From Amphiura filiformis (taxonomy: Eukaryota > Echinodermata > Ophiuroidea > Amphilepidida > Amphiuridae): DNA of 64,000 nt. Below, piece by piece: positions 1,276 through 57,280 of the stretch (its first letter is position 1; each line of letters opens with the position of its first letter). Location: positions 14,084,243 through 14,148,242 of the forward strand of contig NC_092642.1 in assembly GCF_039555335.1 (NCBI RefSeq). Reading direction: 5' to 3'. Below the pieces are notes generated by a model. It was not told the origin of the DNA and ran no database searches. It worked only from the letters and a program-made list of their open reading frames with translations. Both the position numbers and the translations under genes were made by a program.

Positions 1276-1316
1276 TCACACAAATGAATAGGCAATATGC
1301 CCATTCGTATTCCCAT
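1276..1316 (-). CDS. Gene A candidate terminal exon
   Basis: After a long T tract and TAG, the phase-1 frame reads GNTNGHIAYSFV then TGA. It would end the protein in SFV, a class I PDZ-ligand form. It is the only good acceptor with a fitting phase that I found in the first 2.8 kb, but it is short and unsupported by homology; no AATAAA is close. Confidence 0.3.
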
Positions 1317-4300
1317 CTAAAAAAAAATCGAAATTTATTCACTTCTTCTTGTCTATACTTGGTCAAATTGTAACCACCAAAATGGATTTTATTAGATGTC
1401 GTTCTCTACTTGTTCTATTAGGATACTTTGATTCGCTTCATAATGCGACAAACATAGCATTTTTCTGCATTTTATAATCCGTTCTTTTGTCATTTGGAAT
1501 GTAATGTTGAATAAGTGATGTACCATATAAACTGTATGCATATCACTATTCGGAGTATGCCTTGTTTGTACATCCCATCAGCTGTGTGTAGCTCTGCCAA
1601 TAATCATAACTAATATGATTGGCGAGATTTTACACACATTGTAGGCGCTGTACGTCTACTTGACGCATAAACTGTGTGTATATTGTTATTCGTCTTATAT
1701 GTCTTGTTTGAATGAATCCCATCAGCTGCGTGAAACTCCCGATAATCATGATCATTATAATCAGTGAGCTATAAATACACGCATGCAGGCGCTGGAATGA
1801 AATCCCAATTTTCTTCATTTTACCTCATTTGTTTGGCTCGAAATTAAAATGGGCAATGCGATCAGTAGCTACCAGTGAAAACTAACATTTAAATAGGAGC
1901 CTATTTTTATGTAAATCACACATTATTGCTTTAAAAGAGCGTTTTGTGATCCACAGCATCATCCCCCCACTTTTCTCTAATAAAGTTGACATTTTTATAT
2001 CACTGCAAACCTCTGGCAACATGATGTTATGTACAAAAAAATTCTTACAGATTAATTTGTCTAGCAAAAATATCGTGAAAATTTGAATTGTGTTTTGGTA
2101 TACCTGAACAAAATAACAACACATTGTCTATGGAGCAGTGTAATAAAGATAATCATGCATAACTCGCAGATCGAGGGTTGACAAACAGAAGGCCTTAACT
2201 CACTTTTGGCCATGTTGGGATTTTGGTACCAAAATAATCTGTAATACCCACAGATTCTTAAAATCATAAGCCTTAACCCAATTCAACTTCCTATTGCATC
2301 TATAGCACAATAATACTTGGTCACATCTCAATGCAAAAATATTATTTTACTCATTTTTCTCAAAAAGGCATTTATTTAGTTAAGGCATTCTGTTTGTCAA
2401 CCCTCGAAATGCAAAATCAGAATCAAATTTTGGGGATAAGTTTTTTTTGTGGATATCTCCTGAAAAAAAGAGAAGCTAGGATCATGAAATACTCTTTTAA
2501 TTAGAGGCCATTTTGTACACAAATTATAGTGAAATTTATTACTATTGTGCACCCTGAAGTTTTCACATCAGGAAATAATGTCTCCAAAGGCCTACCGTCC
2601 CGATGCAGTGTTTTAACATTTCAATTAATGTTGACCAACATTGTGAGGCAATTCAATCTTGATTAGTGTTAAGAATATCACTATGGTAAAAAGGAGCAGT
2701 TAAAACATCTACACTTCTGTGTCAATCAAATTGTTTCTGACAGGTGTTGAAACAATCAGAGAATTCATTCTTACAGTAAATCCGAGCATACACTTGTTGC
2801 GTATGGATCTGTACATCACAAGCGTTCAAGTTGTCAGAAGTTGTTCATCTGCACCATGGTCAAAAGAACATGTGTTTTTCTGTACCTGTGCAGATACAGT
2901 CATATAGGTCTCTCTGCTTACGATCTTCATTCTCATTTTCCATCGATAATAATGTAATAACACTGGGAATAGGTGCTAGAGAAATCGGGTACTCTGAACT
3001 CTCAGCACTTACATAATGTAGATTTGGTAGGTACCCATGAAATCCTACAAAGAGAAAATATGAAAATATTATGAACATGATTGATGGTTCATTTGAAACA
3101 TTTGGCATTTGAAATGTTCAATGAAACATTACATTATGTAAACAGGACATGGCAGGAAGACATGACCCCAGGACATGATGTCAAGTTCTTGGGTAAAAAC
3201 GTAGCCTAATCAGCATTTGTCCCGATGGAAAAATGGTTGGTAATCCACTCTGCAGCTTTAACGCAATCACCGATCAACTTCAAACTTGTTACGGTGATAG
3301 GATATGGTGGCCTGATGTGCTGAATAGTTTTGTGTCATTTTATTTGCATATTTATGAATATTAATGATTTTATTTGGATATTTTGCCTTCATTTTCATTA
3401 ATCCACTCTACAGCTTAAACATACACGGCTGTTCTAGACTTTGTTAAAGATTAAGTGAGGCTATATTCATGGATTTGTCGAAGGCTTTCGATATCATATA
3501 CCACAATATCTTGTTGGATGAATTATATCACTATGGTTTTTGTGGAATATCTCATACGTGGTTTAGAATTTTCCTCTCAAATAGAAAACAGTATGTATAT
3601 TATGATAATGTAAAATCTTAATTAGCTCTTGATCAGAGCCCTTGTACCTTAGTAGATCCAGTGATCCCTGAGTAAAATAAACCCAAGCAAGTGACTGGTA
3701 AAGAAAATGTAACACAAATCCCTGCCTGGTTAGACCATTCTGTAAACTAGAATTATGTGGTTTGTAATTAAGGTGGCCCCCACAAAACTATACACTACAT
3801 GAGGACACCATATACTATCACAATACCAAGTTTGAAGTTGATCGGTGATTGCGTTTAAGCTAGAGAGTGGATTAATGGAAATGAAGGCAAAATATGCTGA
3901 TGAGCTCATTAATATTCATAATATGTAAATAATGCGACACAAAACTATATACAGCACATGAGGCCACCATACCCTATCTCCGTACCAAGTTTGAAGTTGA
4001 TTGCGTTTAAGCTGGAGAGTGGATTAATGAATTTGCTTCCGCCCGGACAAACAAACAAAGATACAAAGAAACAAACAGGCAAGGAAACAAACAAACAAAC
4101 AACCATATGGATGATAACATAAGCCCCACATATATGTGGGGGCCAAAAATTAATACCACTCCTAGTACGGAGCTTGCCAAAGGCAAGCTACACTATCACT
4201 AGGCAAGCTACATAAGTCACCAACCAGCACTTCCCTGTCACCATGGTCACCAACAAGTATAGGACCACTATACATTATTACTGTCTACCCACAGATATTG

Positions 4301-7300
4301 GTCTATCCCCATCCACCAACCGCTCAAGTCCACTCACCGAGGCGCCAGAGCCGGTCTTTACTATAGTGTCAGAGGGCATATGGCATGGTTTTTCATTTTT
4401 TCTTTCAATTGGATGGAAAATAGGTCGGCTTTGGAGCAAATTTAAATCTCAATATGAAAATGTGATGTATGGTGTACCCCATGACACACTACATTTTAAT
4501 GGGGGAAGTTTTACTTGGAGCTGGGGACAATAATTCCAGAAAAAAATCAGTGGAATTTGAAGAATGCCAATTAATTGCCACCCCTTCACCAATTCAAGTC
4601 ACATCACTTTTCACCTTATCAGTTCCTAGAATATAAAAACAGGGAAAATCTGTTCCAACTGACCAGCGGGGAACCAAAGGATGGATACAAAAGGTTACAA
4701 CAGTGTCACACTAGCAATGGATAAAATTAAAAACAGGTAAAATATGACACAACATCCAATGGGGGGGGGGGGAACACAAAACATATAAACAAAGTTAAAA
4801 ACCTGACGTTTCGAAAAAGACAAAACGTTTTCTTTTTCAAGGGATAAAATAAGAGACCTGCTCTCAATATAGTGGTGACCAGCTCCTAAAAATTAATTTC
4901 AGTTCCTAGAAATTGGACAGAAGGAAATTTATGCAAATGAGCTACCAAATTAGCATATTTTGTGACGAAACCCTACTTGAGGTTGAAGACTGCTAATTGT
5001 CACCCCTCCACCAAAAATCATATCACTCTACGCCTTACCAGTTGCACTTGCAACCTCAGACAGACAGAATGATGGACGGACAGACGGATGGAATGACAGG
5101 CAACCAGGAAACATAATACCTCTGGCACAGGCTTAAAACCATACTTTATATACTGGGTTGCACCAATCCCTCAAAAAGTAAACATTTTCCTAATTTTGGG
5201 TTTTTACTAGGTTCTCAGAAAATAGGCAACAAGTAGACTCTATACCCACCTGATTGTTCCCATTTCTGTGACCTATGAATCATGAGGAACAGTAGCACCA
5301 AAGCCAGTATGCCTGCTATACAACCAATCAATATGGACAGCCACATCTGTTCCTGTCTGGTTGCCAAAGGTGCTGTAGCATAAGGTGCATCCGCTCTTGG
5401 GGTTTCATCAACCCGTGTCCCATCTGGTAACAAAATGAACTGTACATCAGTTATAAATAAATTATTCTGGGGGGTACTCAAGTTTGGTTTGGGTAGGGAT
5501 GTGTTGCTGACAATTTGACAGTGGAACTATCCATATATCAATTTTTCAAGAAATTTGGATGAATGGCTATACCAAAAGTCGGTTGTTTAAACTATACTGA
5601 CAGTGGGTGCAGTAATGATGTGCAGTGGTAACTGCTTCCAGGCTGGTATTGTCCTTGGGAAGAAGCTGAATTTGTATGAGTCAGTTCTTGGAGTCAGTCA
5701 GTTCTTGGACCTCACTGTGGCGGATTTTATACAGCATCGTCAACCTGTAGCCTCACTATATCATAGAAGGTCCAGTGACCCAGAGTAAAATAAATCTGAG
5801 CAAGCATGGATCACGACAAAATCCTAGGGGGTATATAATAACTACAATGTGTGACTAAATTGAAGAGTGCCCCACCTGACAAAAATGAAAGAAAAAAGTG
5901 CCCAAAAAATGGGCAAGGGGGCAAGGAGCCCTTTTCTACCAAAATTCAGCCCGAAAATACACAATTTTTCCACTCTACGCGCGGCGCGTGCGCATATTGC
6001 AAGGGTTAAGGCTTTCCATCCTGATAATGGTCAAAAATAGAGTAAAATACCACATCGTCTCTATGTATTTTTGTCTCTATATATTATATTTATCTCTATG
6101 TATTATATGATGCAACTGTAATTTTTTTCGTCTGTGCCCGAAAATTTTATTTTGCCCCCGACCAAAAAAGCTGCCTCGCCCCTGGCTATGGAGGAGTTAT
6201 CTTGTACATCCACAGTCGACTGGGGACTCATTTGATCACATTGTCACAGTCTCTCCATGGTAAGATCGATACCCTTTGGGTGAAACTGACTCTTTCATGC
6301 TCCCGCCCAATCCTCGCCGGTATTGTCTATGGTCAAAAGTTTGTTGTGAATTTTTTGAAGATCTAGATTCTGTACTTAAAGAAGTTGATGGTGTAAGTGT
6401 TATGTCAAGAACACCTGCTGAAACCCTCTGTACAGGAGTGGAGAAAACTTGTCGGAAACGGGCTTTGATCATGTATGGACCACACATCCTGAAATGTTTG
6501 CTAATAATGGTGCCATTTCTTTTTCTCACAGTGATCACTAGTTGGTTTACACAGTGAGGAAAGTTACCAATGTGCTAGGGGTCCCTCCCGTAATATAAAG
6601 GCAGGCTCGTATCGTAAATATGATGTCTCTGCATTCTTAGAAGATCTCAATCTAATTCCATGGTGCACTATTGAGGTGTCTGATGATCCAGACATGGCCT
6701 GGAATATTTTTTGAGGGCCTTTTTGTTCCTATTTGTGACAAGCATGCCCCCTTCAAGAATATGAAAATTCTAAGTAAACCGCCTCCTTGGTTTGACGATG
6801 AGTATGTTTCCCTTAGGAGAGATCTTGATTTCTTTAAGGGAAGGGGTATGAACGTTTGGACAGTATTTATTGTGGGACATTAGAGCACATCAGACATACC
6901 GAATTGCATTCTGAATCTGAAGAATGTCCTTCTGATATCAAATAATTTAGATTTTTGAAATTCGCAATGTAATACACATTTTATGGCAAATCATTAAAAT
7001 TTATATTTTTGGTATTTAACAGTACTCGAAGTAAACTTTATAAATCTGATGATATGTACTTAAAGTGTATGTAGGTGGGATGAAAAGCCGACGATCAATT
7101 GAAAATTTTGACCTTTCGTATTGAAGATATGGATTTTTTCCCAAAACACCAATAAAAATTAGGTCTTTTTGGGAAAAAAATCCATATCTTCAATATGAAA
7201 GGTCAAAATTTTCAATTGATCGTCGGCTTTTCCTCCCAGCTACATTGCCCACCCCATGATCTACGTAACCCATAGTTAGTGACAGGAACTTCTCTTTTGT

Positions 7301-10300
7301 ATTATCGTACATGCACCATATAGAATTAAAGTGCATAACAGTGCTGTACTCTCTTCAAACGTGCACAAAAGTAAAGTTGCTATCTACTGAAGATAGTAAA
7401 AGTTCTGTTGACCATTTATGTGTCCAGTCCCTAAGATCTGCCCGATGTAACATTCTAAAATGAACAATACAACCTTAAAAACAATCAGCAATTGAGTAGG
7501 CCTAGTTCTTTTAAGTTTTTGATGCATGTCATGCATTATTTTATCATATCTTCTGAATGTTTATAAACAATTTTAGGCCTACCGTATATACCTAGTAGAA
7601 CTTTGCATGTTTGAGTTTGATACTAAAGTGCAGTCCCATATGTGGTGTGATCAAGCAAAATCAGCCAGAAGTCTGGCGTATTCAATTCAATTCAAAACCA
7701 CATTGAAATTGAACAGTTGTAGTGTTTCCAAAACAATATGCAAAATAAGAAATTATTGTCTTCGTTTGGCTATATCTGAAAATCAATATAGGCCTATCGG
7801 ACTTCCGACTAATTTTGCTTGATCACATCACATATGTAAATTTCATATCTCTGATCATGAGGATCACATGGAATTCCACATCAAACCATTTATAAAAGAT
7901 GTATTTTTATCAAATATATATATGTTTGACTGGTAAAGCTTTCCCACATCATTTTTAGTATAGCTTAAAATCTCAAAATTAATGGTTTTGCTTCCGCCTG
8001 GACTAGACATGACAATGAACCAAGCAAACAACCATCTGGGCCATAACATAAGCCCCACACAGTTGTGGGAGCCAGAAATGACTTCTGTATACACAAAGCT
8101 TTTTGAACATATCTGTATAATGACCTCAGATGACCCTTAAGATTTGACCTCACATCTGTTGACACCACACATGTCAATGTATCCAAAGTCCAACCCACTG
8201 AAATCTGTCACATCATGTGGGAGAAATCATCAAATGGCAGCCAGGGTTAACATTTTTAACACACACATACCCCCACATGGCAAGCACACAGCGAACAGAG
8301 CATAGTCCCATTCCAACTAAATATTTGTTGGTAGTGATGATAACGATAATTACAAGTTATGTACATTGTACATAGTGCATATCAAATTAAGAAACAGTGA
8401 AGAAATCAAATTCTTTTACAGTATAGATTCTATAATTATTCTTGATAACGTAAATTTATAATGACAATTACAACTCACCATCTATTGATGAAGCTGCACC
8501 TTTTGGTGGAGTGTTAACCACATCTGTGAATGTAAATCAAACAGGGTACATGTATTAACTGATTAAATTAATGCATGTTTTTGTCTTTTTATGCATCACA
8601 GAATCTAAAATTAATAATTATATACTATATGGTACTTTATTTTGCGGCGGCAACACATATAGCCTACATGTATTATCAGTATAAAATGCACCTAAATTAC
8701 ATCTGCATTACAAGTGCATTTTTATGCAAAAACATGTGATTTACTTGTAATTTGGTAACAAACTGAATGGAAATTTAAGTTAGACAGGTTTTGTCCATGT
8801 AATTTCACAATATTGGACCCAGAGTATAGGACATGCAGCAAATGGTACTTTTAAGCTTATCAGAACGGTAAACTGCATATCCGTCTTTACACGCTTTTCA
8901 ATGGGAAATGAACTTTGCTGCTTGGATGATGGCACGAGAGGTTAGCATTTATTCCGTATTGAAAAGCGTGTAAAGACGGATATGCAGTCGACCGGCCTCT
9001 ATATACTCATGCGATATAAGGCATGGAAATTTCCATCACTTTTTCATTGAAAAAAAAAAAATGTGGGCATATTAGGGCAAGGGCATTTATTTGGAACATG
9101 GAACAATTCTGTATAATCAGACTTACAATCCACAAGTCTTCCAATAAATGGACAAAGGACATGATTTTCTTGTAACAAAATATTTGTACCAGTTGTTGAT
9201 AAAGGTCTATCTGTCATCTTCGTTTGTTGGTAATATACAATATTGATTTATCGGCCACTCTAAAAAATGATTAAATCCAATTCATCAATCTTTTACATCA
9301 CAATTTCACTCCCTATTGAATCTCATTTCAAATACCTTTTTTTTAGCGATTTTGTGCATTTCTTGCTCTTTTTCTGGTAAAATGCATATATTTTCAGATA
9401 TACCGAGTAAGATTTGTGCATTTTTGTTTCACAACATAAAAATTTAGAGCAAAATATATCAGAATACAATGAAATCAAGCTATTCCCATGTAATATACAT
9501 ACATACCTAAATTTTGTAACCCCATTTCATTAAGACCATAGTAGGTGTATGATATGATGCAAAAACCACATAAAAGTTAGGTGAACAAATGAGGCAAATG
9601 AACACAGAATTAACAAGGAAAATTGTGGCTATAAAACGATGTAAGTTTTCAAACCAAATTTGTTGAAACTCCTTTAGAATAGGCCTCAATGAAGGGGAAA
9701 AAAACTAACAAATGAACAAAGTCAATAATATGAGGAAACAGGTATGATTTCAAATATTTCTTTTATGCTTATGAAAGTTGATACGTCAAGCTTACCATAA
9801 ATTGCCTGAAGAAACATCACAGCAGCCACCATAAGAAGACTACAAACGACTTCAGAAAAAGAGGAAAAAGCAGGTTAGTATACTTTCGTTCAGTATGAAT
9901 AAAGTTCCAAATGTGTAATAAAGGGATTTGGTTACATGGTGTAAATTGCTGTGGGAATTAATACACAAAGTTATGGGCACTCTTAACACACTAGAGTTTT
10001 TGCCAGGTTCTGTACAAATGTATAAGATTCTGAAAACATAATAATGGTTACAATAGGAATTGAACAATTCATATGAGACCATCAAAAGGTTAATATAAAA
10101 GCTTATCAAAGTCTATACTAAATCATATTTGACTGAGACACTGACTGATACACACCCCTACAGATATATTATGCTGCCATAAGGTGTAATTTGGATGACC
10201 TGAAAATTTAAATATTTGCTCATTTGCTGGATCAAATCACATGATTTACTTCTATAGGGGTCTGAAGTTATTCATGCGTCTTACTTACCAATGCACGATC

Positions 10301-13300
10301 GCAATCGCTTTCTATTGATTGGCTGTTTAACCCAGGACCACAAACTGACTGGGACCGAGACTCTTTCCTTCCCTCCTTCTGTTCGCTTTACATCTGTACA
10401 GTTCAAACATATGTGACATGCAAGTAACTAATTTGAATATTTTTCCAGCTGTTTGATATATTTTTTGTGTGCAAAACTTACCTATTTCGATATCGTCAAC
10501 ATAATTATATAATAATAATAATAATAATAATATGGAAATTTATAATGCGCAAGTATCCGTCAGAGCCGCTCACCGCGCAACAACAGGAATATGACCACAA
10601 AGGGGAACATGATGAACAGAGCAAATACAGATAATATACAACATACCATAATAAGAAAAACAATCTATACTACAAGTCATCAGCAAAAGCGATATTAAAC
10701 AGATGTGTTTTTAACAAAGATTTAAAAGAGTCCCAAGTAGTACAGTTTTTAATGTGAGTTGGTAGATTGTTCCAAAGTTTAGAACTATCATTGAAATGGA
10801 AATTATAAAGATTATTTAAATATTTAAAAGTCTGGAGTTTGCAAATAATTTTGGAGTACAGAGTTTTGATAGTAAGGTTTTGAGATGATGAGAGCTTGAA
10901 CTGATTGCTAAGACCAGGGTCGTAGCAGGAGGAGCCTCAAGGGACCTATGGACAAGGAGCAGTGGGGCCCTTTTAACATCTGCTTTATCAGCCCTTATTT
11001 CATTTTCTCTTTTGCTCGGGGCCCCTGAACCCTCGGGCCCATGGACTTTGTCTTCCCTGTCTTCCCGCTTGCTATGCCCAATGTGTGACCATGCTATTGT
11101 TATAACAACAATAGTGTAATCCTTTTAACAATAGCACGGTCCTTCTTGACAGACTAATTCATCCCAGTTTAGACGTTGACTGTTTTTGTATTTTTTAATT
11201 TTTATTCATTTTGTTGATGGTTGTCACCAGACGGTTTGTATAGCAATTGAGGAGCATAAACTGGCTGGGACCAAGACTAGTTGTACACAAGTCAAAAAAT
11301 AAAGTCACTCAGATTTTTTTACTTGAAGCCAATTGTTACACTATCTGTGTTGTCAAGCTACCAAGGTGTAAGTTAGTGGTAAATGACCACTGAATACTTC
11401 TGGATCTTATTAAACTTTGACCTCCATGCCATGAAACCCAACAAAGTAACCAAACATCACAAATATTGCAAACTATTCTTTTTCTGAATTGCTTTGGAAA
11501 TATGAAACTACTCTTTCATTAAAATCTCACCTGCAAGTTGATTGGAGGGCAAGGTATCTTCACCACTAGACATTACAAATGCAGGAGCCTCAGGTACCTT
11601 ATCCGCAATATTTACTTCATCATCACTAAAACTGGCATCGCTAACTCCACCACAAGCATGTTCACCATGAGCATCACCAGAACACTTACTTGGTACTGCC
11701 ACACCAGGAATGTTACATTCATCTGCTACAAAGGCAACATCTGAGGATGCTAGCAGGTTGTCATTTGATGTTCTATCAATAATACTGCTGTCATAGAAAC
11801 TGCTCTGTTGTGTTTGGTTGCTATGACACCCTGCATCAACATCACTGGATGAACTTTGTAGCACATCAAGGAGACCTTGTTGGTCATGTATGAAAGAAGA
11901 TGTATCAGCACTGGTATCAATGGCAGTTGAGCTGGAAAGAGCAAGTTCAGAACCAGACCCTTGGACAACCACCCCTCTGTTAACAAGAGCTGTCTTATAA
12001 TCTTCTGCCGATGGGGTCAAGTTTTCAGAAGCAGCTAAATTATTTTGGTGTTTCTCTCTTGTTTCTTGTTGACTGATAGCAAATGGTTGAGATGAACTTT
12101 CATCAGCTTGCTGACTTGGCCCAGCATTGTCACTGTGGTGTTGATTGACATCCCATGGATGCTTGGATGATCCAGCAGACTTTTTCTGAAACCGATTTGG
12201 AGGACCCTCGCTCCCTGCTTTTTGCCTTTCATCAGGAGAGTTAGGTAAGGTTGAATCTGTACTCTCATCTACAAAATTAAAATGATAAATAAATAAACAA
12301 AAACATCTTTTATTTAAGGCAGCTGTGTACTCTAGACATTGTTTCTTTCACAAAATTGAGTTTTTTGATATGTTTGTACTTTGTTATGTTTTTTATATGC
12401 AAGGAATGAAAATCCAGATTTGTAAACTCCAACTGCAATATTTTAAGGATTTTATTTCACTATTCCAATCGTGTTTGAAATTGAAAAGGAAAGAAAATCT
12501 TTGTTGTACCAGCAGGGTACACACGCGCATCAACGCATCACGTTGCGTATCGCGCAATTTGTTAACGCACAAATACGCTACGCATACGTGACACTTATCT
12601 GCATGCGCGCGCGCATCTTATGGAAACACCACGGAAGCACAAAAACCTAGTGGTCAAATGGCTCCGTTTTAGCTGATAAAATGTGGATTTTTTCAAGTTC
12701 TTTCCCCCGATTTAAATATCAAGTTATGAATGGATTTCGCTCAAACTTCTCAAGGGGCCGTGGATTTACCCGATGTTTATGTAATGTAAGGTAGAAAAAT
12801 AAAAACTGCCGCATTCTCCTGCGAGATTCGATGAAAGTGCAAAATGTGACCACTTTAAACTTCAACTGCCATTATTTCAATGTTCATTTTCTCGGTAAAA
12901 TGACGATTTAGGTACACGATAACTCAATAAATACAGCATCTATAGGTAAGCAAATATTATGATTATCGTAAAAAGCATGATTGACTCAAGAAACGGTTTT
13001 CTCATTTGTTTATATTTTGGTCTATTTCCGATTTTAGGCATCATTTTGTGCAAATAGGCGTTTGTGAATTTTAAAAAGTTCAATTTGATGCATTATATGG
13101 TCAATATCTCAAAAAATAAGGCCAATATCAAAAAAATTTAAAAAAAAAGTTTTTGGAATGGAGCCTCAAGATTGAGCTAAAAATAAAATAAAATATTTTG
13201 GAAAGAGTGTTTTTTGTTATGATGTACCTAACAAATACTGCCCAAAACTCCCTTTTTTTGTGATTTTCTTCTTAATTGTTGTTTTTACCCCAAATCTGTA

Positions 13301-36390: not shown

Positions 36391-37071
36391 ATCATTATCA
36401 TCCTCTTTATACAGTTCTTATACAATTATGCTTTTATCACAATGATTCCCTGTTTGGGAGCTTAGTAGCTGCACGTTTAGGGTCTTCATCTCCTTGGGCC
36501 TGCCAAGGTGCTGCGCTTAAGATAATTTTCACATTTTTTTAGATGCTCTACTGCCGTCTCTATTTATCAAGAGGTGAAATATATAATATGTTACATGATC
36601 TGGTCAATGGAGGCCAAAGGCGACAAATTGGAAATTGAGCTAAAGGCAAAAATATGGAGAAAAACAAGGAAATACAAAAGAAAATAGACATCACAAAACT
36701 TCAAAACTGAAGAACCAAGTATGCTAGACCTTAATGCTTTCAGTAAACGATAGCCTAATGTCTGTATAAGATAATAATTATAGTTGTAACTCAATTTTCA
36801 AAAATGTCTTTCTCCATGGACCAGATCGTGTCACATATTAGCTGTGACATTGTGATATTGATAAAATTAAGAAGTTCTACAGAGGGTTATGGAGTTCAAA
36901 ATTATGTGACTTGACAACACTTTTCAACATGGGATAAAGCGTGACCTTGGTGCAACAATTCATGTCACATTAAAAATCATTGTCAAACAATTTCACAGCC
37001 CTCTCTAGAGAGTGGACAAATATCGTGTGTCCAACAGCAAGCTATCTGAAATCACATAATCATGAAAAGAG
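36391..37071. other. Downstream of gene B
   Basis: This should contain the gene B 3' UTR. I see no convincing AATAAA on the minus strand and no repeat I recognise. Confidence 0.35.
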
Positions 37072-37716
37072 CTAAGCAGCACTTGTCAATTGGTAATGGT
37101 GAGTTGTTAATGTAGAAACATGACGTGTCCAATGTTTAAACTTCAACTTCTCATTTGCCCAACATTTAAACTTCAACAGTTGAAGTTCAAGATTATTTTC
37201 CTTTGACAACATTTTTGCCCAAATGCGATAATCTTTCCCAACCTTTAATTTCTTTACCTCAGACCAATTCAAACTAGATGGAATGGTGACACTCACTATA
37301 GAATTTCCACAGTGCCTTCTGATTGGGCCCATTTTGAAGTACTTCTTCGCACACTTTACTATCTTCGAGTCATCTCTAAGTATAGCAAACTGGGCCAGTC
37401 CCTTTTTGATCATTATTTTGTGGCATCTACCCACAAAACCATCTCTGATTAGAGTTTGTGAAACTTTACGAATCCTTTTCAAATTTCTCCCAAATAAATC
37501 TATGCACTTTGATCCTACATGCGTGACTTCCCTAGTGAAGACATTTCTGATGTAATGTTTATACCTGATGCCTCTGTGCCCACACGGGCATACCCCATTA
37601 CAACCTCCAAGATCTTCCACGGTGTCAAATTTCCATTCTTGAGACATCCTGTACATGTCATCCTTCTCACGACTCAAGGGTATCAGATGCCCAAGCAGTT
37701 GTCCTGGGTATGGCTT
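37072..37716 (-). CDS. Gene B coding exon 9: terminal Cys-rich CxCG/VGSxC domain
   Basis: A phase-0 terminal exon of 214 residues plus stop, acceptor TTTACTCCACAG. It contains GGCNGVCPCGHRGIRYKHYI and then FTREVTHVGSKCIDLF: C517, C521, C523 and C549 could bind zinc. The remainder is Lys/Arg-rich (for example RNLKRIRKV, KKLKVGKDYR). The layout CxCG, aromatic strand, hairpin, VGSxC resembles small zinc-ribbon or treble-clef modules; I think of similar uncharacterised proteins of large DNA viruses and protists but cannot verify. The strongly basic remainder suggests nucleic acid binding. No poly(A) signal was clear downstream. Confidence 0.7.
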   Translation of the reverse strand, partial: KPYPGQLLGHLIPLSREKDDMYRMSQEWKFDTVEDLGGCNGVCPCGHRGIRYKHYIRNVFTREVTHVGSKCIDLFGRNLKRIRKVSQTLIRDGFVGRCHKIMIKKGLAQFAILRDDSKIVKCAKKYFKMGPIRRHCGNSIVSVTIPSSLNWSEVKKLKVGKDYRIWAKMLSKENNLELQLLKFKCWANEKLKFKHWTRHVSTLTTHHYQLTSAA

Positions 37717-43700: not shown

Positions 43701-46700
43701 TTCTCTTTGAATTATCCTAGCTCACAATTAAAGAAGCCTCATATAATCAGTAATATAAAGTGTAATACAAACTTTTGTAATGCAAGAAATTGCTAAAAAT
43801 GTAAATACAATAAAATCCATTAAACTATCAAAATTGTATAAAAGTCTGCAGCGCAAAAATCTACATTTTTTACTTGATGTAACGTATGTTGTGTGTCTAT
43901 TTCGTTTGTCCAATTTATAGTGTTATGTAAGTTTTTACCTGTTGTCTAGCTTTTTCTGTAATTTAAATATGAGGTCTATGGGCCTGGTTCAAAATTTGGA
44001 TAAAAAAGGTGCATTGGGTCAGAAATGGTCGTAACTCAACACATGAAGATTTGAGACTACTTCTAACTGCATAAAAGATTGATTGACCAAAAAAAAAGAT
44101 AGACTAGACACCAGAACCTGGTAAAAAGACCCAAAAATGACAAAGTTATGGCTAAAAATGTGATTTTCAGGGAAAATGTGGCCATTTTGGATTTTTGCTG
44201 TGCACATTCTTTTTGAAACCCAGGCTTAACATTTTGTAATTTCATGTTTAGATAGGCCTAGGTTAAATAGAACATACAAAAACCTTATCCCGAAGCAAAA
44301 CAAAACAAGTCCCATTTATAGCCCACTCCTAGCATTAAGTTCCACCCCAGGTTATTAGGATTTAGTACTTTGGGGTATGGGGCACTACTAGGCCTAGTTC
44401 CTATAGCTTAAGTACTGATGCATGTGAAATGATTAAGAATCAGAATAGGAGCTTGTGATTTTCATAATAATCATAATACCACTAACATGTATGAATACGA
44501 GCTTGTGACATGAGAGGGCTCATATTCAAGGAGCATTATCTACTGGCGATTTTACCAATATGCTGTAAAAGAGAAACACCTACCCCTGTACTTGATTTGC
44601 ATTCTTAAATGTGGTTCTTAACTCCTCAATGGAATAACTGACTATTGGCTCAAGAAAAGGGACTGCTACAGTGAAAAGATCTTATATTTGATGTTGGTGT
44701 TGTATACAGCATCATTATACCAATGTCACATATTGGGAAAATCCATGTTTGTGTTCTATGAAAAGTAAAAAAGTCTCCATGATTTTTATTGCATTATATA
44801 AATGACCTATGTACAGAGGTTCTCTCCTGTAATGAACAATTTGAGAAAGATTGAGGAACTCCTACAATGACATCACAAAGTAGAGGGATATTTCACTTTT
44901 TTTCAAAAGTTGTCAAATGTGAAATATGGGCCCCCACCCCTGTTCATAAACGGAACATCCCAATATAAACATTTGTTGTTTTATATTTTTTGATAAAGAC
45001 AAAGGATGAAAGAAGATAAGTAGAAAAATTTACTTTCATAGATGCTTGTCTTAGGTGCCAAAAATTTGTTCAAAAATGGCATAAAACGGCATTTTACAAG
45101 TCAGGGAAATACGTGTTAGGGGGCATATTTTAGGGGGCCCATATTTCCCAGGAGGGGCCATAGCAGATTTTTTTATATTGATTATTATGAACACTTATCC
45201 AAACTTATTAAATTGCCAAAATATGGTTGAAATTTGCTGACCCCCATCTTCCACCTTTTTCCCATGGCATCTGTATTTCTCAGAAAATCTCTCTTAACAC
45301 CCAAAGACACAGAATCAAGCAGAAGTTTGCTTTTTACAGACATTCTGCAGATTTTCTATTCACCACAAGCCAGCCGACACTATTATTTTGCATTATGTGT
45401 ATATCCATATCAAAAGGATGCACTTGTCAGTTGCTACATGTGTCTCTCTTTACATAATAGCTAGGCTATGAGGCTCATCTGAAATAGAGGTCACTTCAAA
45501 TCATCCTCAAGTCAAAATAATGCTGAAAAAAAATCCATTCATTTAGAACTAGTTATGTGCTATACATGTAGGCCTACCTTTTTCCACAGGGGTTCCACAG
45601 TTTTGTCCTTTGTATCTGATGATGAAGTTTCTTTAACTCTCCTGTCAGAGTCGGATCTTTGGTCTACGTCGGTCTCTTTAGGCACTTCTGTAACACAACA
45701 AATAAAGTTTAAAATAAGTAAAAGCCACTTCATTACATGTGACGCAATATGATCAAGTCAAACTAAGTAGGCAATTTTGAAAATATATTTAATCATCACC
45801 AACTTCACAAAGTGCACTATTGCTGAAATCTTGTTCATACTTCATGGAGCAATTGTCCCTCATTAAAAGATGAGACTGGACTTTGTCCGTTGGTGAATGG
45901 TCTGTATTTTTTTCATCTATGAATACATATTGTCTACATGTACTTGATGAGATCTGCTCCCACAACACCTGGATAAAGTCACCAAGGCTTTACTTGAAAT
46001 ACAGTCCAATAAACTTGCCAAAATTCAATAGAGAACAAAGGAATGTTGAAGCCTAAGATGTATATTTGAAAGACAAAAGATTGAGTATTCTTATTCAATG
46101 GGTGCATCTTGTAAAGAATTCACGTAATTTGATTGGTTTTCTGGTGTATAATATCTCACAATAGTTGATAGTGATATTGGTCAGGGCGTGCGCCGCCACA
46201 CAACGGCGGCACGCTTGTTGCTCATCAATGATCGCGCGATAATATGTTCGCGTAATACACGTGGATACCGGCTGCGCCAGCATCCACTACTCAAAATATT
46301 GGTCAGCCCATCCATTATGACACGATATTGGATAGGCAAAAGACAAAATCCTATCTTTTATTCTCTAAATAATGATATGTGATATATCATTTTAAAGCCA
46401 GCAATCTGAGCATTTTAAATCTGAGCTTTTTAAATGTGGACATACCTTATTATAATTTTTCGACTTTATCCGAGATTCATGGGAGCAGGTCTCCTTTGTT
46501 AATAGGTGTGTGTTCTATTCCAATACCTGCACATACTCAATGTTTTTTTAATTTGTCTCAAGATTTTTTTGTCTCAAGTCTCAATTGTAACAAATATTTT
46601 TGGTGGTGCCAAGCGGGACATGGGGACATTTTCCTCAAACCCTGCAACCCCCGAAAAAATTGAGCTAAAGCATTTTCCACCCTGATGTGGCAATAACATA

Positions 46701-49700: not shown

Positions 49701-52700
49701 ATTCTTTTGTACAGTAAATAGGAAAAAAAACCTTCTTTCTGATTTCCAAAATTAGGATCGGTCGGTTGAGGGCAAGCGAACATCTTTTTTTTTGGCCTTA
49801 CACAAAGACATAGGCCTACTTTACCTTCTTCTTTCACAGGCTTCATGACTTCTCGATAAGCCTCACCCTCTATATGTACCCCCAGAACTTTGTTGTCAAT
49901 GAGCCAATCAGCTTTCTGCATGACAGCATCTTGCAATCTGCTTACAGCCCTCACTGGTATCTGTAATATATAAACCACACTTCCTCTCTCCTGTCCAATG
50001 AGATTTATCTGATGTGGTTTCATTCCAAGACTGTTAGCTACTCTGATGATAAAAGCTTTGACTTGCTTGTTTTTGGTATGCTTAGCATGACCTGCTATTC
50101 GAAATTTCACTTTCTTTGTTCCATTAGCTGAAAAAAAAACAGGAAAAAGAAACAATCAGAGAAAACCCCATCAGAAGATGTACAGTGGATCCTTGGATCA
50201 ACCAAACCCCTCAAACAGAACTAATATTATGCAGTAGCACAGATAAGGATAGCATAATAAAAAGTACATGTAGTGTTAAATGTATAATTAATATGAAGAG
50301 GGGAGCGGGTGGACATGCACTGCATACCCAGAGCAAACTTAATCGTTACCAAATGGGAGTCCTTCTTTTCTTGTTCTTGTTCAGATAATGGCCAACCCTC
50401 CTTTTGGAGTCAAGACGGACAGGGTAAGAGTCTTGCAACTACATGCAGTTTCATAAAAGGTATTATAATGATTGTGATAATTGGAAAGGAAAGAAATTTT
50501 GACACTGTGCTACGACATTAAAAAAAAAACCCTCTATAATAATTTAATTCTCTAGAATAAAGCATCTGCAATGTACATGGTAACAAACCAAGGCAACCTT
50601 TTGCACAGCTTGACAGCATATTTGGCTGTCACCAAATTTTTCAATTTCTTCACCTCCCCAAATGTAACAGCACATTACTACATTAGCAACTTTCCGCCTT
50701 CCCCAGATGTAACGGTGCTAGGGGCACTTACCCACATGTTCCCTACTCACACTTTTCAAGTTGAAAATTTGTAAAATTACATACTTACGTGGTGCATTCT
50801 TTGTAATAAACATTGTTATTGGTTGACCGTCCCGATTCTTGGCATATTCAGACACATCATCTGCTACAGCCTTTGCGTATCTCTTCACCTTTTGCAACAC
50901 ACTACACTTTTCAACCTGATATAGAACTATTTGTAAGAAGCACAAATTATCTGGATGCAACAAATTTTTACTCTCCATAAGCATGACAAAATCTTCTCCT
51001 GATTGCATTCCATTGATTTCATTTTGTTGGATTCCAAATCCTTTAACATCTGAAATGAGAAACAAAGGAAAATGCAGACTTCCAAGTATAAAGCAAAGCA
51101 TTGATCAACATGGTGTTTGTATGGTAAAAAACTTTGGAACACATATTCATGTATACAAGCATGTGGACTGAGGAAATTCTGGACAGAAAGTGGTCATCTA
51201 AAAGGCACATTGTTTGAAACTGGCTTTGTCAAAAAAATTTTGTACGGGGATGTGCCACGCAGACTTTCGTATACTGACTTTCTCTTTACTTACCTTTTGC
51301 TGTTTTTGCTACCCATCAGTATACTAATTGTTCACAAAAAACACATAAAAAAGAACACAAATTTGCCCTAATTGGGCACTTTTAAGGACACTCTTGCACA
51401 TATTTTTATTTGGCACATTGGTCTCCACTGCAACCCCCCATTGACATACCAAAATCGCTGAAAAGGTCCCCAAAACGGTGGCACATATCTGTATATCTTC
51501 AGCCATGTAGGACCCCCTCCCCCTGGGGCCATTGTAACCATGTAATAAGGAACACCCCTCTTATTCTTAATGACACCCCCATGTGATGAGTGTGTATGAC
51601 TTTTTAACCGTGGAATTTCATACACCGGCCATTTAACTGTGGAGTTTAACAGTGGAGTTTTACAAAAAACTGCACAGTGGAGTACGTAGCGTCATAGGGT
51701 ATGAGGGTACATGACCCCAATCGAGTTGAAAATTTATAATCCAACAGGAAAATTACCAAAAATGGCTTGTTCCCCCAAATCAGACCCGGTGACATGGTCA
51801 GTGCCTCACCATTGGATTACTCACGCTAAGCTACTGACTGTGGAGGTCTATTTATCATACCATCAAGTAGGTTCCTGTGTTTTCATTGGATAAGCGCCCC
51901 AAAATGCACCAAGACGTTGTTGGTTTGTGTATAATATGCACAACAGCACAGTTTGAATGTGGATACAAATGCATTACTTACCTTGTTTTAGAAGCATTTT
52001 ACAGACTTTTAATGTGTCTGTTGACATTAGGTTCAGCCTCACTGTAATAGCATTGTATGCAAAGTTGGGAATACTGCTAAGTTTCAATTTGCCACTTTTC
52101 TTCATTCTTTTCCCCTCATGTGTTGCTGTGGATTATGAAAACAGAAGAATACATTTATAGCATAAACCTAAAAAAAAATGCAATTTCACTTTGATTCGGA
52201 TATTTGGTGGAGATAATGACACAAGGTGCAGGGACGTAAATGGGTGACATAGCCATATTCTGAACATCCACCAGGTCCTTGGCCAAGTGGCCGAGGGCTT
52301 GCGCGGTGTATTGCCCATTTAGGGGGGTTTGTCCTGGAAATAGGCTGCAGGATATCACCACCCTCCTAAAAAGTTTCTTTGGCTCTTTTTATGACGAATT
52401 ATCATAAACAAATATTTTTTTACATTCCCGGATTTGATTTTTTGGGGGGGGGGGGGGCAAATTTCCGGAATTCCGATAATACCCGGAAGATTTACATCCC
52501 TGAAGGTGATCAAATGTGCTGCATATTATCTCTAAACTTTGTTGACCTAAAGTTGGGTAGTGATGTAGGTGAATATTTCAATGGTCGCAGTATCCAATCT
52601 TGTCCATTAAGTTTGTTCGGTTTATATAAGGCGGAAAAAATAAGACTCATAACATCGTGTATTGATATAGAATGGCATGCACGGGCGCAATGCTTACGCT

Positions 52701-55700
52701 AGTAGTGCATTGCGTAATGCGTGACTGGTGCACGCTTATGTGAATTTACGTGAGCGTGAGTTGGGACTTTATTGATGTGCACAGTAACAAAAGCCGAATA
52801 ATTTCCGCCTTATATGAGCCGAACAAACTTAGTCGTCGACATCATCATCATCATCGTTGTCAACGTCAACATCACCATCACTAGTATAACCATTATCAAT
52901 TCCAACATATCATCATAATGTTTAAAATATGCTAAGCTTATTTGCTTGAAAAGACATTGTATTGTGACATACAAACCTGTACTAGGCTGCTCCTTTTGAT
53001 GACAATTATGATGTACATTGCCATTATCACCACCCCTTCTCCTTTTCTGAGGTGGTTGGCCATCTTCATCATCAGAATGTTTAAGTTTATGTTTATGACC
53101 TGGAAAAAAATGTTTAATTTGGTTCTTTTTAATTGAGGATGAATTGTCAAATAACCAACTTCAAGCACTGAGCCTTTTTTTCGTTTCTTTTCAGTTACAT
53201 GCAGCATGCAGGGATGTATATCTTTAACACCCACCTGCAGGGTACTGGAGGGCAGCTTTTTCTATTGGGTGGGTTACATTTCAAAATGACTTGTCAGTCT
53301 TGCATAAAATTTTATATCACTGACTATTCAACCATGTTGGACAGGTATGTTTTCCTGTGTCCCATTAAAGGCCTATTCAATGATTTGCTCATCCGGAGGA
53401 TCTTAAAATCATCAAAATTCAGATTTTGGCACCTTTGTAAGTGTCACAGATGTGCTAATATAGCCTGCTAGTGGTTAAGCCGAAAGCTGTGTATTAAATA
53501 CAAAAAGATATTTGACATGAATACATAATTTTTCTACTTTAAGTATACAAATTAGCTACATGTATTTGAATGGGGATTTGCTGTTTTCCTTCTTTTTTGC
53601 CAAATTTTTCATTTCACACATACCTCATGACATTATTTTAATGACTTATTCTTCACTTTCAGGCAACTTATACACAATTTTTCACACTTTAGCTGACATC
53701 ACTGAATAAGCTTCAACTGCTTATAATAGCAACAAAATTGATGAAAAGACTAGAAGGGGGTAGGGGTTTGCAAATAAATTTGCTAACTCAACTCCCAAAA
53801 AGAAAATTTCTAACCAAATGATTTGGTTTGCAACTCGATCACCCCCCAGAAAATATCAATCCACCTAAAACCAACAGCAAAAGAAAATTTCAACCCCCTA
53901 ACAACCCCTATAGTGTAAAATTCAAACCGGACCTGAGAAAACAACTTTTCTATTCAACTCGTTTCTCCTTCTTACCTTACTCTCCACCAAAAAGCAGAAA
54001 GAGAGTACCATATCTTACTGTGTTTTTCAGGTCACCTACAAAAATCTGAAATTGGTCTTGACATCATTTTTTCACCACCTACAGGTGACATTCCGAACTA
54101 TATGTATGCTAATTTTCAAGTAGCTATCTTCAACAAAACAAAAGTTATGACCCAACAGGTAGAACTTTTTGAATGACCCTTAAGTGCAACTATGACAGCA
54201 GTGGCTTACCTACATCATGTTATTGCTATCTGAGCTGCTTGAAAAGAGATTTCTTAAGTCCTGAACTGTCGTTCAGGCAACACAAAAACACACTTTTATT
54301 TGGTCATGTCTCACAAATGTCACAAAACTTAAAATTATCTCATGTTCATATGAGAGCATTCACAATTCCATACTTACCTCGTAAAAAATAACCACTGTTG
54401 TAACTGCTCGACTGTCCAGCCTCTGACGACTCTGTTTCCTGTACCACACCAGATGTATCGCCATCAGTGCTTGGTTGAGTCAACATTCTGCATGTACATG
54501 TAGTTCCTTGCAGCTGATTTGCAATATGGCTATCTAATGGCATAAATCAATTAAAACACACAATATATCTTTTAATCAATGGTATGAAAAGTCAAAACCT
54601 GTAAAATGTGTTCTCAGAATGTTGAAAACCGAAAACAGCACAAAATTTCTGCTTAAAGGCGAAAGTTTCGAAGTCTGCCACAGCCACATGCAAAGGATGG
54701 GTGCTGGTTCTCACTAACTACATTGTGTGAACTATATTGGTATAGATTTGCATTACAGTAGAATAACACTGGATTTTGTTGATTGTCTGATTATATATTT
54801 AAGCAATTCTATTTTTTTAAAGTCCAGGAGCGCACTTCTACGTCAAAATCTCATGTATGCCCTAATTGTCCACTCACTCATCACCATAGAAAAAATGATA
54901 GATTCTGTAAGCACATACCCTTCTTCTTTGGTTTAGGCGGCATACTCAGACATAACTCAGAATAAGACTATGGTCTAGGGTGTCGCTAATGAATCAGTAT
55001 ACTATGTTGATTTTGTTGATTGCCTGATCTGCTTGAAGCAGAATGTGATGAAAAATAGAAGAGAGTTTCCCAAAAGCAGTGCTTCTATTTTGATCTTAGT
55101 TGAAAGAGGAATGTATGTGATTTTTCTTGGAATGTGATTTCTCTCCAAGAAAAGGAATTTATATCATACAGTGCATAATTTTATACTAGGGCCTGTGACT
55201 TGATAACACAGGATTAATATTTTTGGTTTAACCTTTTCCCAAGTTACAGATGTTACAGTTACAGAAATGATATATTTCATATAAATGTCCTTTTTTTTCA
55301 AATACCCAACAAATTATTTACAGTATAAAATAATTGTAAAATTGTTGCCACTTCTGTGTTTATCAGAAAATGCTAGATTATTATTTATGTGGTTATTTTG
55401 CTACATTCAAAAGTAATATAATACTAAAGAAACTTTTTTGTCATAATGTGACCGCCCACCACAAACCAGCCGTAAAGTTAGCAAATTGTATTCTGAGTTA
55501 CATTGTAAAATGTGCAAAGGTCGTATTCATAGTATACCTCAAGTTGGTGCTACACGTATCTCTTTTTGCTAGTGCCAGTCAAACACCTTTTAAACCAATC
55601 AATAATCCTATTGTTGAAGAGGATAATAAGCTTCTACATATGTCTATAAAATTCTTAAATAGGTCTAGTCTTTGTTTGCTTTGGCTAAATCCTGCTCAGG

Positions 55701-56651
55701 TGATGGGTTACAAAGCATTGTATTTTGTGTAGGTATGTATAACCAACAATTGAACCTTATTAAGGGGGTACTACACCCCTGGCCAATTTTGTGCCTATTT
55801 TTGCTTTTTTTTTCCAAAAGTATAGCGCATTGGTGACAAGTAAGATATGTATATTATAGGGGCATTGATTTATTGATCAAATATTGGGTTTCCCTCATTT
55901 TTGACTGTAACTCCACAACTGTTTTCTGTGCTGAAATAAATTTTCCAGTGTAATAGTTGTAGTCCTTGCCCCTTTAATGTACATATCTTACTTGTCACCA
56001 ATGTGCTATAACTTTTGAGAAAAATTAAAAAATAGGCACAAAATTGGGCAAGGGTGTAGTACCCCCTTAACTTGGGGATGATTTGAAATGACGACTGCTA
56101 ATTTTGACTGTTTGATATATATTACCACCAATGTTGAAAAAGAGACACATGTAGAACCGAAATATACCATTTTATTGAAGGAGCAAAGTTCAACAAACCA
56201 AAAGCCCACTTCTGGATATCGTTTGAAGTCAAATGATATACCATTTTAAAGCTTATGATATATATTTTCTAAACACAAAATAAAACAAAATTGACCGGGG
56301 TCCGACTTTACGGCTGGTTTGTGGTGGACGGTTACATGTTATTTCTTCTCATTTGCTGAACTTTAATGCAGGGACCAAGCTTCTGATCACTTCAGACTAA
56401 TGGTCACAAATAAATAGTCTAGAATCTGTATCATAAAGAATGTTCTGTACGGGGTTAAAATCCAATTCATTTTGCCCTACATCACCACAGACCTATTAGT
56501 GTGTGTTTATATGCTTACCATTCTGGCAACTTGATTGAATTGTCACTGGTCCATGACAAATGTAGTAGTCTCCAGTAACTCTTGTTTGGTTGCCAGCTAC
56601 ATTAGTTCCAGATTGTACAACAGGCAGATTTTTTTCAGTCTGGGACGTCAT
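37072..56651 (-). CDS. Gene B: DED / TRADD-N-like / Cys-rich C-terminal protein (join of 9 coding exons)
   Basis: Exons, 5' to 3' on the minus strand: 56651-56519, 54533-54378, 53099-52977, 52125-51982, 51049-50789, 50127-49825, 45687-45578, 40472-40269, 37716-37072. All junctions are GT-AG, every phase agrees, and the total is 2079 bases (692 aa plus stop), which strongly supports the model. Layout: residues 1-44 assembly-motif-like N terminus, 45-96 Ser-rich, 97-137 basic with a KRRR stretch, about 158-246 DED, about 276-361 TRADD-N-like beta-alpha-beta-beta-alpha-beta domain, 374-478 hydrophilic then acidic linker, 479-692 Cys-rich domain. DEDs are homotypic adaptor modules of apoptosis and immunity; TRADD-N is a ferredoxin-like fold found in the TNF receptor adaptor TRADD and in many metazoan and bacterial defence proteins. 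The role as an immune adaptor is inferred. Gene A is its paralogue. Exon boundaries are mine and untested by RNA data. Confidence 0.75.
37876..39401. repeat. Tandem duplication, two units of about 773 and 753 bases
   Basis: 37876-38648 and 38649-39401 are nearly identical; the second lacks about 17 bases after gcgcgtcagtc. Both include a (tctc)n tract and cccgggcacgcacctga. Intron 8 of gene B. High identity indicates a recent event or an assembly artefact. Confidence 0.8.
39891..40154. mobile_element. MITE family 1, short copy
   Basis: Ends aaagcgcatttcatgatcca and ggatcacgaaatactccttt. It lies 115 bases from the acidic exon of gene B. Confidence 0.7.
40269..40472 (-). CDS. Gene B coding exon 8: acidic linker
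   Basis: A 204-base, phase 0-0 exon, acceptor ATACTACAG, donor GTATTG. Of 68 residues, well over half are Glu or Asp (SDEEEEELDTEDIE and similar), ending CKYMNGDEMK. Acidic tracts like this occur in chromatin and RNA-binding proteins and may mask the basic C-terminal domain; that is inference. Confidence 0.6.
41467..41836 (+). repeat. Tandem duplication, 185-base unit twice
   Basis: ctaattttgaagcaaagttt starts both units; only a few bases differ. Intron 7 of gene B. Confidence 0.85.
42673..43800 (+). repeat. Three copies of a roughly 220-base unit, two in tandem
   Basis: Units start ttactggggaaattcgctta at 42673 and 42895 and ttactggcgaaatttgctt at 43643; shared tggccattgccatg and gtgtaatacaaactttt. 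Unrelated sequence fills 43100-43640. Confidence 0.7.
43801..45577. other. Gene B intron 7 remainder
   Basis: No exon or clear repeat recognised apart from short AT-rich runs. Confidence 0.4.
45578..45687 (-). CDS. Gene B coding exon 7: hydrophilic linker
   Basis: A 110-base exon, phase 1 to 0, between GTTACAG and GTAGGC. The 37 residues include VPKETDVDQRSDSDRRVKE and end EPLWKK. No domain; the charge pattern suggests a flexible linker. It is accepted because it converts the phase correctly between the TRADD-N-like exon and the acidic exon. Confidence 0.55.
45688..47741. other. Gene B intron 6, first part
   Basis: Holds a CpG-rich islet at 46185-46285 (gggcgtgcgccgcc, gatcgcgcgataat). ORFs present have no domain or splice support. 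Confidence 0.4.
47742..48085. mobile_element. MITE family 1, best-preserved copy
   Basis: 344 bases with ends aaagggtatttcgtgatcca and ggatcacaaaatactccttt. Used here as the reference for the other copies; its interior includes the uninterrupted tgtaatacacataatc site. Confidence 0.75.
48386..48547. repeat. Hairpin with CpG-rich loop
   Basis: Arms catgagggccgattgttc and gaacaatcagccctcatt (with mismatches) enclose a loop full of gcgt/acgc words. No coding sense. Confidence 0.55.
48657..49056. mobile_element. MITE family 2, copy 3
   Basis: agggctgtgcaataattatg at the left, cataattattgcacagcccc at the right; TTA on each side. The interior shares taaatggtct..a.atgttg and the cttccgtactgtttt segment with 29533-29909. 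Confidence 0.75.
49415..49797. mobile_element. GGCC-ended MITE beside the TRADD-N exon
   Basis: Left ggccaagaaaaaaaattgtt, right ggcaagcgaacatctttttt...ggcc, flanked by TTA (49412-49414, 49798-49800). Interior gtcggtcggt repeats. 27 bases separate it from the gene B exon 6 end. Confidence 0.7.
49825..50127 (-). CDS. Gene B coding exon 6: TRADD-N-like domain
   Basis: A 303-base, phase 1-1 exon of 101 residues. Order seen: strand KKVKFRIAG, helix NKQVKAFIIRVANSLGM, strand HQINLIGQERG, strand SVVYILQIPV, helix RAVSRLQDAVMQKADWL, strand KVLGVHIEGE. This is the ferredoxin-like layout of TRADD-N domains, including the GSVVY...IP block. The homologous exon of gene A (13428-13718) keeps the same order and the terminal HIEGE. 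A MITE starts 27 bp beyond the donor, at 49797. Confidence 0.75.
50789..51049 (-). CDS. Gene B coding exon 5: DED, second half
   Basis: A 261-base, phase 1-1 exon, acceptor CTCATTTCAG, donor GTAAGT. Residues 186-250 complete the DED: FVMLMESKNLLHPDNLCFLQ corresponds to the classic F..LE..gLL...NL.fL core of helices 4-5, followed by a final helix with VKRYAKAV. The end, PITMFITKNAP, lines up with PLVLFKRRGKSF in gene A. DED-DED contacts recruit partners such as caspases or adaptors; no caspase is in the window. Confidence 0.75.
51982..52125 (-). CDS. Gene B coding exon 4: DED, first half
   Basis: A 144-base, phase 1-1 exon. After a Lys-rich start, residues 156-185 (IPNFAYNAI ... LKVCKMLLKQ) give helices 1-2 of a death effector domain, with the usual Leu spacing before the K-x-LL block. 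The intron falls between helix 2 and helix 3, exactly as in gene A (exon end 16593), so the split is ancestral to both copies. Donor GTAAGT. Confidence 0.7.
52607..52833. repeat. Hairpin with CpG-rich loop in gene B intron 3
   Basis: gtttgttcggtttatataag is inverted at 52803-52833 (cttatatgagccgaacaaac, one mismatch). The loop has gcgcaatgcttacgc, gcgtaatgcgtg and cacgcttatgtg. Confidence 0.65.
52977..53099 (-). CDS. Gene B coding exon 3: basic NLS-like segment
   Basis: A 123-base, phase 1-1 exon (TTTTTTTCCAG acceptor, GTTTGT donor). The 41 residues are rich in His, Lys and Asp and contain GQPPQKRRRGG, a good match to a monopartite nuclear localisation signal, followed by a His-rich stretch. 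No equivalent was found in gene A, so nuclear targeting may be specific to gene B. The NLS is a reading of composition, not proof. Confidence 0.6.
53100..54377. other. Gene B intron 2
   Basis: No repeat named. A C-rich stretch at 53820-53900 and short ORFs without support. Confidence 0.4.
54378..54533 (-). CDS. Gene B coding exon 2: Ser-rich segment
   Basis: A 156-base, phase 1-1 exon between a TAG acceptor and a GTAAGT donor encoding residues 45-96. It contains NQLQGTT, LTQPSTDGDTSG and ETESSEAG, and looks disordered. The same blocks occur in order in gene A at 22962-23120, which shows both are real exons. No domain recognised; a likely flexible spacer with many potential phosphorylation sites. 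Confidence 0.7.
55449..56335. mobile_element. Inverted-repeat element carrying a TTAA MITE
   Basis: accgcccaccacaaaccagc plus cgtaaagt (55451-55478) is inverted at 56304-56331. A second element sits inside at 55764-56066. Intron 1 of gene B. Confidence 0.65.
55764..56066. mobile_element. TTAA-flanked MITE (piggyBac-like signature)
   Basis: TTAA at 55760-55763 and 56067-56070; arms gggggtactacacccctggc / gggcaagggtgtagtacccc extend over 100 bases with small changes. TTAA duplication is the piggyBac hallmark, though palindromic TTAA ends alone are not proof. Confidence 0.7.
56519..56651 (-). CDS. Gene B coding exon 1: N-terminal GNQ...GDYY...GPVTIQ motif
   Basis: It starts at ATG 56651 (MTSQTEKNLP) and ends in phase 1 at a GTAAGC donor. 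The 44 residues hold a Gly/Asn-rich stretch, then GDYY, then GPVTIQSS. The exon is the same length (133 bases) as the first coding exon of gene A, with most residues identical, so it is under constraint. The pattern of short beta-prone stretches divided by G and N resembles the short N-terminal motifs that seed polymerisation in some NLR-type proteins, but I cannot assign it to a named family. The acceptor, at 56677/56678, is weak in pyrimidines. Confidence 0.75.
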
Positions 56652-57245: not shown

Positions 57246-57254
57246 AAAGCCTCT

Positions 57255-57264
57255 GGAAATTCCC
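57255..57264 (-). promoter_or_regulatory. kB-type site, gene B promoter
   Basis: On the minus strand this reads GGGAATTTCC, a full match to the NF-kB/Rel consensus. The flanking bases (AGTGGGA..TTTCCAGAG) are conserved at the equivalent place upstream of gene A. An inverted CCAAT box (57276-57280) lies 12 bases further upstream. Confidence 0.55.
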
Positions 57265-57275
57265 ACTTAGCTCTG

Positions 57276-57280
57276 ATTGG
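57276..57280 (-). promoter_or_regulatory. CCAAT box, gene B promoter
   Basis: CAGCCAATCAG on the minus strand, 12 bases upstream of the kB site. The same spacing order (CCAAT then kB) is present at 31766-31794 upstream of gene A. Confidence 0.45.

Follow-up and report, generated by a model that had tools for sequence, protein, structure and literature searches.

Two brittle-star genes with a common DED and TRADD-N-like core and different C-terminal parts

How might one kind of death-signalling adaptor come to serve several outputs? The question is raised by a stretch of 64,000 nucleotides from the brittle star Amphiura filiformis (contig NC_092642.1, positions 14,084,243 to 14,148,242; "the window", with positions below counted from its first letter), which carries two minus-strand genes, here called A and B, that share a core and end differently. 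A preliminary description of the locus took them for an undescribed paralogous pair in which one input and assembly platform is wired to a membrane branch (gene A) and to a possibly nuclear branch (gene B). I propose, as a fairly probable reading, that A and B belong to a family of adaptors built of a DED followed by TRADD-N, that the core of these proteins is constant while the part after it is exchanged, and that the tail is the output.

The common core and the family around it

Both genes have been modelled by NCBI. Searches with the spliced proteins match gene B to P0001 (695 amino acids) and gene A, from the DED onward, to P0005 (664 amino acids), and the exons of both models are found in the window, identical except for residues at exon edges, which backs most of the exon joins drawn by hand. 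By BLASTP, A and B are 36% identical over 365 amino acids (E = 5e-53). The remaining pieces are at chance (E = 0.84 or worse) and nothing is common after TRADD-N, just as the preliminary description had it. Each gene follows the order motif exon, Ser-rich exon, split DED, TRADD-N-like exon, with a basic exon extra in B. The core lies at 16593..16752, 15516..15758 (DED parts 1 and 2) and 13428..13718 (TRADD-N-like) in gene A, and at 51982..52125, 50789..51049 and 49825..50127 (exons 4 to 6) in gene B. The intron within the DED cuts the same aligned Asp codon in both genes. The next intron, behind the DED, agrees in phase between the genes, but its two positions differ by about 3 columns, in a linker that aligns loosely. 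In the hand models every join is phase 1 apart from the final one of gene B; with an exon that NCBI adds to that gene, its final two joins are phase 0.

A and B are not alone. The NCBI models include several paralogs with the common core and unrelated tails (P0001, P0002, P0003 and P0005), all of them given as lying on a sequence 65,321,293 bases long, and therefore probably on one chromosome. Nor do A and B make the pair they were taken for: the nearest relative found for A is P0003, 82% identical over 237 core columns, and the nearest found for B is P0002. Two full-length protein searches were made, each scoring the 8000 candidates richest in shared words and returning 4 proteins, a depth at which further paralogs may have escaped, and matches in other species too. 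P0004 (510 amino acids), from another large sequence, has a TRADD-N-like stretch within a C2H2 zinc-finger array.

The preliminary description would have been refuted by structure predictions lacking a six-helix DED or a ferredoxin-like fold, and this did not come about. In gene B, six helices are predicted at residues 158-234, as in a death fold, and a beta-alpha-beta-beta-alpha-beta order resembling RRM or ACT domains at 276-358; in gene A the same two arrangements are predicted at P0005 residues 23-121 and 135-217. The Pfam profile for DED (PF01335) is matched at E values of 5.3e-7 (A), 7.9e-7 (B) and 1.2e-7 (P0003), all significant and all under the curated cut-off of 35.9 bits. When the predicted structure of B was compared by Foldseek, DEDs were absent from the top 50 chains and turned up on re-alignment of the 1000 best.

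Then there is the TRADD-N assignment. Passages of Kaur et al. 2021 (eLife, PMC8195603) give as a mark of the family a tiny residue and Ser, occasionally Cys, in the turn between strands beta2 and beta3. Four of the five proteins compared carry it: the turn reads Gly-Ser in A (P0005 180-181), B (321-322) and P0003, and Gly-Cys in P0002, the fifth being P0004. Profile matches are weak: PF20694 at E = 0.23 for B, and PF13820 at 0.062 for P0003, 0.035 for P0002 and 0.11 for P0004. Gene A matches neither Pfam TRADD-N model, and a TRADD-N profile run against the PDB sequences gave one unrelated row alone (E = 0.83).

Could gene B simply be the brittle-star DEDD2, a plain orthologue, and the remainder ordinary divergence? 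DEDD2 also has a DED then TRADD-N and is nucleolar, according to passages of PMC8195603, and B has basic clusters. Against this, one 65.3-Mb sequence carries several paralogs whose core is the same and whose tails are unrelated. The idea is hardly to be believed.

What follows the core

If the tail is the output, then the tails deserve a closer look. That of gene B runs from a charged linker (exon 7, 45578..45687, EVPKETD..WKK) to an acidic one (exon 8, 40269..40481) and a final Cys-rich exon with a basic tail and the stop (exon 9, 37072..37716). All three exons are in P0001, and so the acidic linker and Cys-rich basic domain of the preliminary description are upheld. The linker (residues 374-480) is acidic at 44 of 107 positions. 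The hand model, which lacks exon 7, has 652 codons; with it, the exons sum to 695 codons plus stop, equal to P0001 and near the 692 first reported.

The Cys-rich domain has the signature CxCG..Y...I.N..(V/I)GSxCI..F. It has no Pfam match in the hand-spliced protein, and its exon has none in NCBIfam, none better than E = 0.039 in PHROGs, and none by pattern in viral contigs. It does match a human-gut phage record (tblastn, E = 4e-4). Patterns drawn from an alignment of that phage open reading frame (ORF), two viral-contig ORFs and the gene B exon found 36 bacterial loci with the domain, confirmed against the phage ORF; compared with a small set of these loci, the gene B exon gives E = 6e-9. The bacterial and phage proteins have the Cys signature in common with the tail of B, and the best local matches to it extend over 52-94 columns at about 34-38% identity. 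Six of the eight such ORFs examined are 174-212 amino acids long, the other two 294 and 617. The domain of gene B perhaps binds zinc and nucleic acid.

The neighbors of the bacterial domain were taken as 116 ORFs of at least 110 amino acids from 30 of the 36 loci, leaving aside near-duplicates (L023, L024 and L029-L032), overlapping ORFs and the Cys-domain ORFs themselves. Among the best 25 families by matching members (of 469 and 115), PADLOC matches at E = 1e-5 are to RmrA (7), capP (6), mREase_IV (5), AriA (4), GajA of Gabija (3) and REase_I (3), and Pfam matches are to HSDR_N, Methylase_S and OLD-like_TOPRIM (3 each), parts of type I restriction systems among them. Integrases, resolvases and transposases are likewise present. 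Matches such as those to RmrA and capP may be due to helicases, peptidases and repressors of a general kind, and the defence-gene neighbors are to be read as context and not as enrichment.

Gene A goes another way after its core. A disordered linker (11531..12268) is followed by an exon reading VKRTEGG..LRSCI (10289..10393), a first transmembrane helix (9796..9849), a loop exon (VVNTPPKGAASSID, 8479..8523), further loop with a second helix (5250..5423), and a final exon that NCBI ends in CICTGTEKHMFF (2860..3044). The hand model has an alternative last exon (1276..1316, ending in YSFV) that is not NCBI's. Both the linker and the membrane hairpin lie within P0005, with hydropathy peaks at residues 511-529 and 576-594 and predicted helices at 505-534 and 566-602, so this part of the original reading is sound. 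P0006 (409 amino acids, from another large sequence) has a linker that matches it at 52% identity across 261 alignment columns, with a weak Death-domain match (E = 0.18) behind. A linker common to two such proteins looks like a sign of exon shuffling.

The two nearest relatives end differently again. P0002 carries a LIM domain (E = 1.9e-9). Past the LIM, at the C-terminus, its residues 375-436 repeat the Ser-rich exon once more, perhaps from a merged neighboring gene. P0003, whose tail lies outside the window, has after its core, at residues of about 530-660, a candidate BH3 like that of BIM (RPEIAVGEQLRIISEEF), together with a TQT site, which I take to be of the dynein-light-chain type. This BH3 matches Pfam PF08945 at E values of 0.004-0.031, under the cut-off, and against the PDB the three best rows of the tail belong to BIM peptides (E = 0.075-0.19), unrelated PCSK9 rows setting in at 0.26. 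In 20000 shuffles of the tail a strict BH3 pattern recurs 422 times and TQT 2161 times, and because of this each is weak by itself. The weak resemblance to BIM suggests interchangeable outputs. P0003 is possibly a death adaptor fused to a BH3-only killer, or possibly a run-on gene model, since its tail of about 375 amino acids is near the length of the two echinoderm BH3-only candidates (350 and 373 amino acids) given in a passage of PMC8998228.

An alternative view extends that last thought to every tail: the genes stop soon after TRADD-N, and the hairpin, Cys, LIM and BIM-like parts are run-on neighbors, artefacts of gene models and hand splicing. Three observations weigh on its side and so against exchanged outputs. 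The introns are long (9.4 kb after TRADD-N in gene B by hand, or 4.1 kb and then 5.1 kb with the NCBI exon), P0002 closes with another Ser-rich exon, which is what two merged neighbors would give, and there is the BH3-only length of the P0003 tail. Nevertheless, the frame is kept across the joins, NCBI models both A and B with their tails, and variable tails on a DED and TRADD-N core are a pattern that passages of PMC8195603 describe. I consider it unlikely that the tails are artefacts.

The first exons and their age

The preliminary description gave the two genes one input. In gene B, exon 1 (56519..56651) holds the start codon at 56651, and not near 57280 as had been thought, together with the motif GNQTRVTGDYYICHGPVTIQSS; a Ser-rich exon 2 (54378..54533) and a basic exon 3 with a cluster like a nuclear localization signal, PQKRRRGG (52977..53099), lead to the DED. 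All three exons are in P0001 as well as in the hand model. Gene A has clear relatives of the first two, a motif exon (28376..28508) and a Ser-rich exon (22962..23120), the latter with GC in place of GT as its donor (22950-22961). In gene A both are known from the hand model and lie outside the NCBI protein, which begins at an in-frame ATG within the DED exon (16752).

It is at the DED exon that the trouble lies. Its strong acceptor, the AG ending at 16777, reads DKKKRKRNNGSSGS like the paralog P0003, but through it the motif and Ser exons do not share the frame of the DED; by my own reading the DNA of gene A is 2 nt short there relative to the frame of the P0003 protein. The frame is kept solely by a weak acceptor in poor context that ends at 16764, 13 nt downstream. 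Because the strong acceptor is out of frame and the in-frame one is poor, gene A has either a shorter N-terminus, different splicing or decay at its 5' end. One input is thus unproven, the motif and Ser exons being absent from the NCBI gene A and, through the strong acceptor, out of frame with its DED.

Decay might have gone further. If gene A were a decaying copy, its protein truncated or non-functional, there would be no two working branches. The out-of-frame exons and the start at an internal ATG fit such a copy and to that extent count against A as a working member of the family. Even so, 664 codons stand open over nine exons from the internal ATG, and the core is 82% identical to that of P0003, so a wholly decayed gene A seems distinctly unlikely.

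A second point bears on the input. Comparing the DNA of genes A and B, synonymous divergence (dS) is 0.49 in the motif exon and 0.34 in the Ser exon, against 2.0-2.2 in the DED exons and saturation in the TRADD-N exon. With counts pooled and rounded, the two genes differ at 19 of 60 synonymous sites in the 5' exons and at 97 of 132 in the core (Fisher p = 7.5e-8). With dS so low next to a near-saturated core, the motif and Ser cassette, as a common element, therefore appears to be much younger than the core, as shuffling or gene conversion would make it; silent-site constraint would be a weaker alternative. A cassette younger than the core means in turn that simple duplication of a gene with one input does not account for A and B. 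The unequal ages point to an exchange of modules, and the motif and Ser exons were seemingly exchanged or converted recently.

What the motif exon does is another matter. The RHIM amyloid motif has the core consensus (I/V)Q(I/V)GxxNx(M), and the VTIQSSCQN of the motif exon, compared by eye, has the IQ but lacks the G in fourth position; this candidate was dropped. A region search for a wider family of motif exons gave the query alone, from 1 candidate, without recovering even the known paralog P0003, and is hence uninformative.

Around the two genes, a reverse transcriptase ORF (34985-36417, minus strand; RVT_1 at 35938-36417, E = 2.8e-21) lies between the stop of gene B and the first exon of gene A. 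Plus-strand ORFs at 25538-27372 lie in the first intron of gene A; the best Pfam E value among the three scanned is 0.046. Rfam and tRNA scans gave no match.

Outputs and known systems

On the reading proposed here, the DED would join homotypic assemblies with other DED proteins, TRADD-N would offer an adaptor surface, and the tail would decide what is delivered where. The output of gene A would be delivery to a membrane, or its disturbance, through the two-helix hairpin; gene B would bring an acidic linker and a bacterial-type CxCG..GSxCI domain, perhaps to bind zinc and nucleic acid. Cell death or immunity may be the outcome; assembly, partners and localization are likewise presumed. A clean division into a nuclear B and a membrane A is not to be expected. 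B would be nuclear by its basic cluster and basic Cys domain, and a basic cluster is also present in P0003, which falls with gene A in the family; this is why the split is not clean.

A bolder version, which I hold to be rather doubtful, is a modular brittle-star cluster of death adaptors: one core is fused to interchangeable outputs, namely the membrane hairpin of A, the domain of B with its bacterial, defence-island character, the LIM of P0002 and the BIM-like BH3 of P0003, and a 5' cassette is passed among them by exon shuffling or gene conversion. If true, the fusion to BIM would couple a death adaptor of extrinsic type straight to the mitochondrial pathway within one polypeptide. The tail of B, for its part, ties an animal death adaptor to a type of protein found at least partly beside bacterial defence genes. 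With named genes, both modelled by NCBI, the idea of a constant death-adaptor core with exchangeable outputs can be put to the test in an echinoderm that regenerates.

How new is this? In the literature searched, no paper pairs Amphiura filiformis with TRADD, the main text of the brittle-star genome paper (PMC11310086), so far as available, makes no mention of TRADD, and among the matches listed for TRADD-N literature since 2021 no title concerns brittle stars. The main text of PMC8195603 has no occurrence of BH3, brittle star or RHIM, and no CxCG domain or motif and Ser cassette appears in its relevant passages. The claim that such genes were not described thus survives for A and B themselves, of which these searches gave no description, and fails for their kind, which passages of PMC8195603 already contain.

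Those passages report that the DED and TRADD-N stay constant while their flanks vary, with expansions in echinoderms (the DEDD2 clade at 18-23 copies) and other marine animals, fusions to apoptosis parts such as a Bcl2 domain, and retrotransposons nearby. A and B have the same constant DED then TRADD-N and variable C-terminal parts, and an RVT_1 ORF lies between them. In the oyster expansion, as described there, a transmembrane helix precedes the DED and TRADD-N, whereas gene A has two such helices after its core. Compared by description only, DEDD2/FLAME3 has the DED then TRADD-N of A and B, to which B adds the N-terminal motif cassette, the acidic linker and the CxCG domain, and A the membrane hairpin. 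Genes A and B are new and distinctive members of a known DED and TRADD-N adaptor family, and their novelty lies in which tails they carry and in an exchanged 5' cassette.

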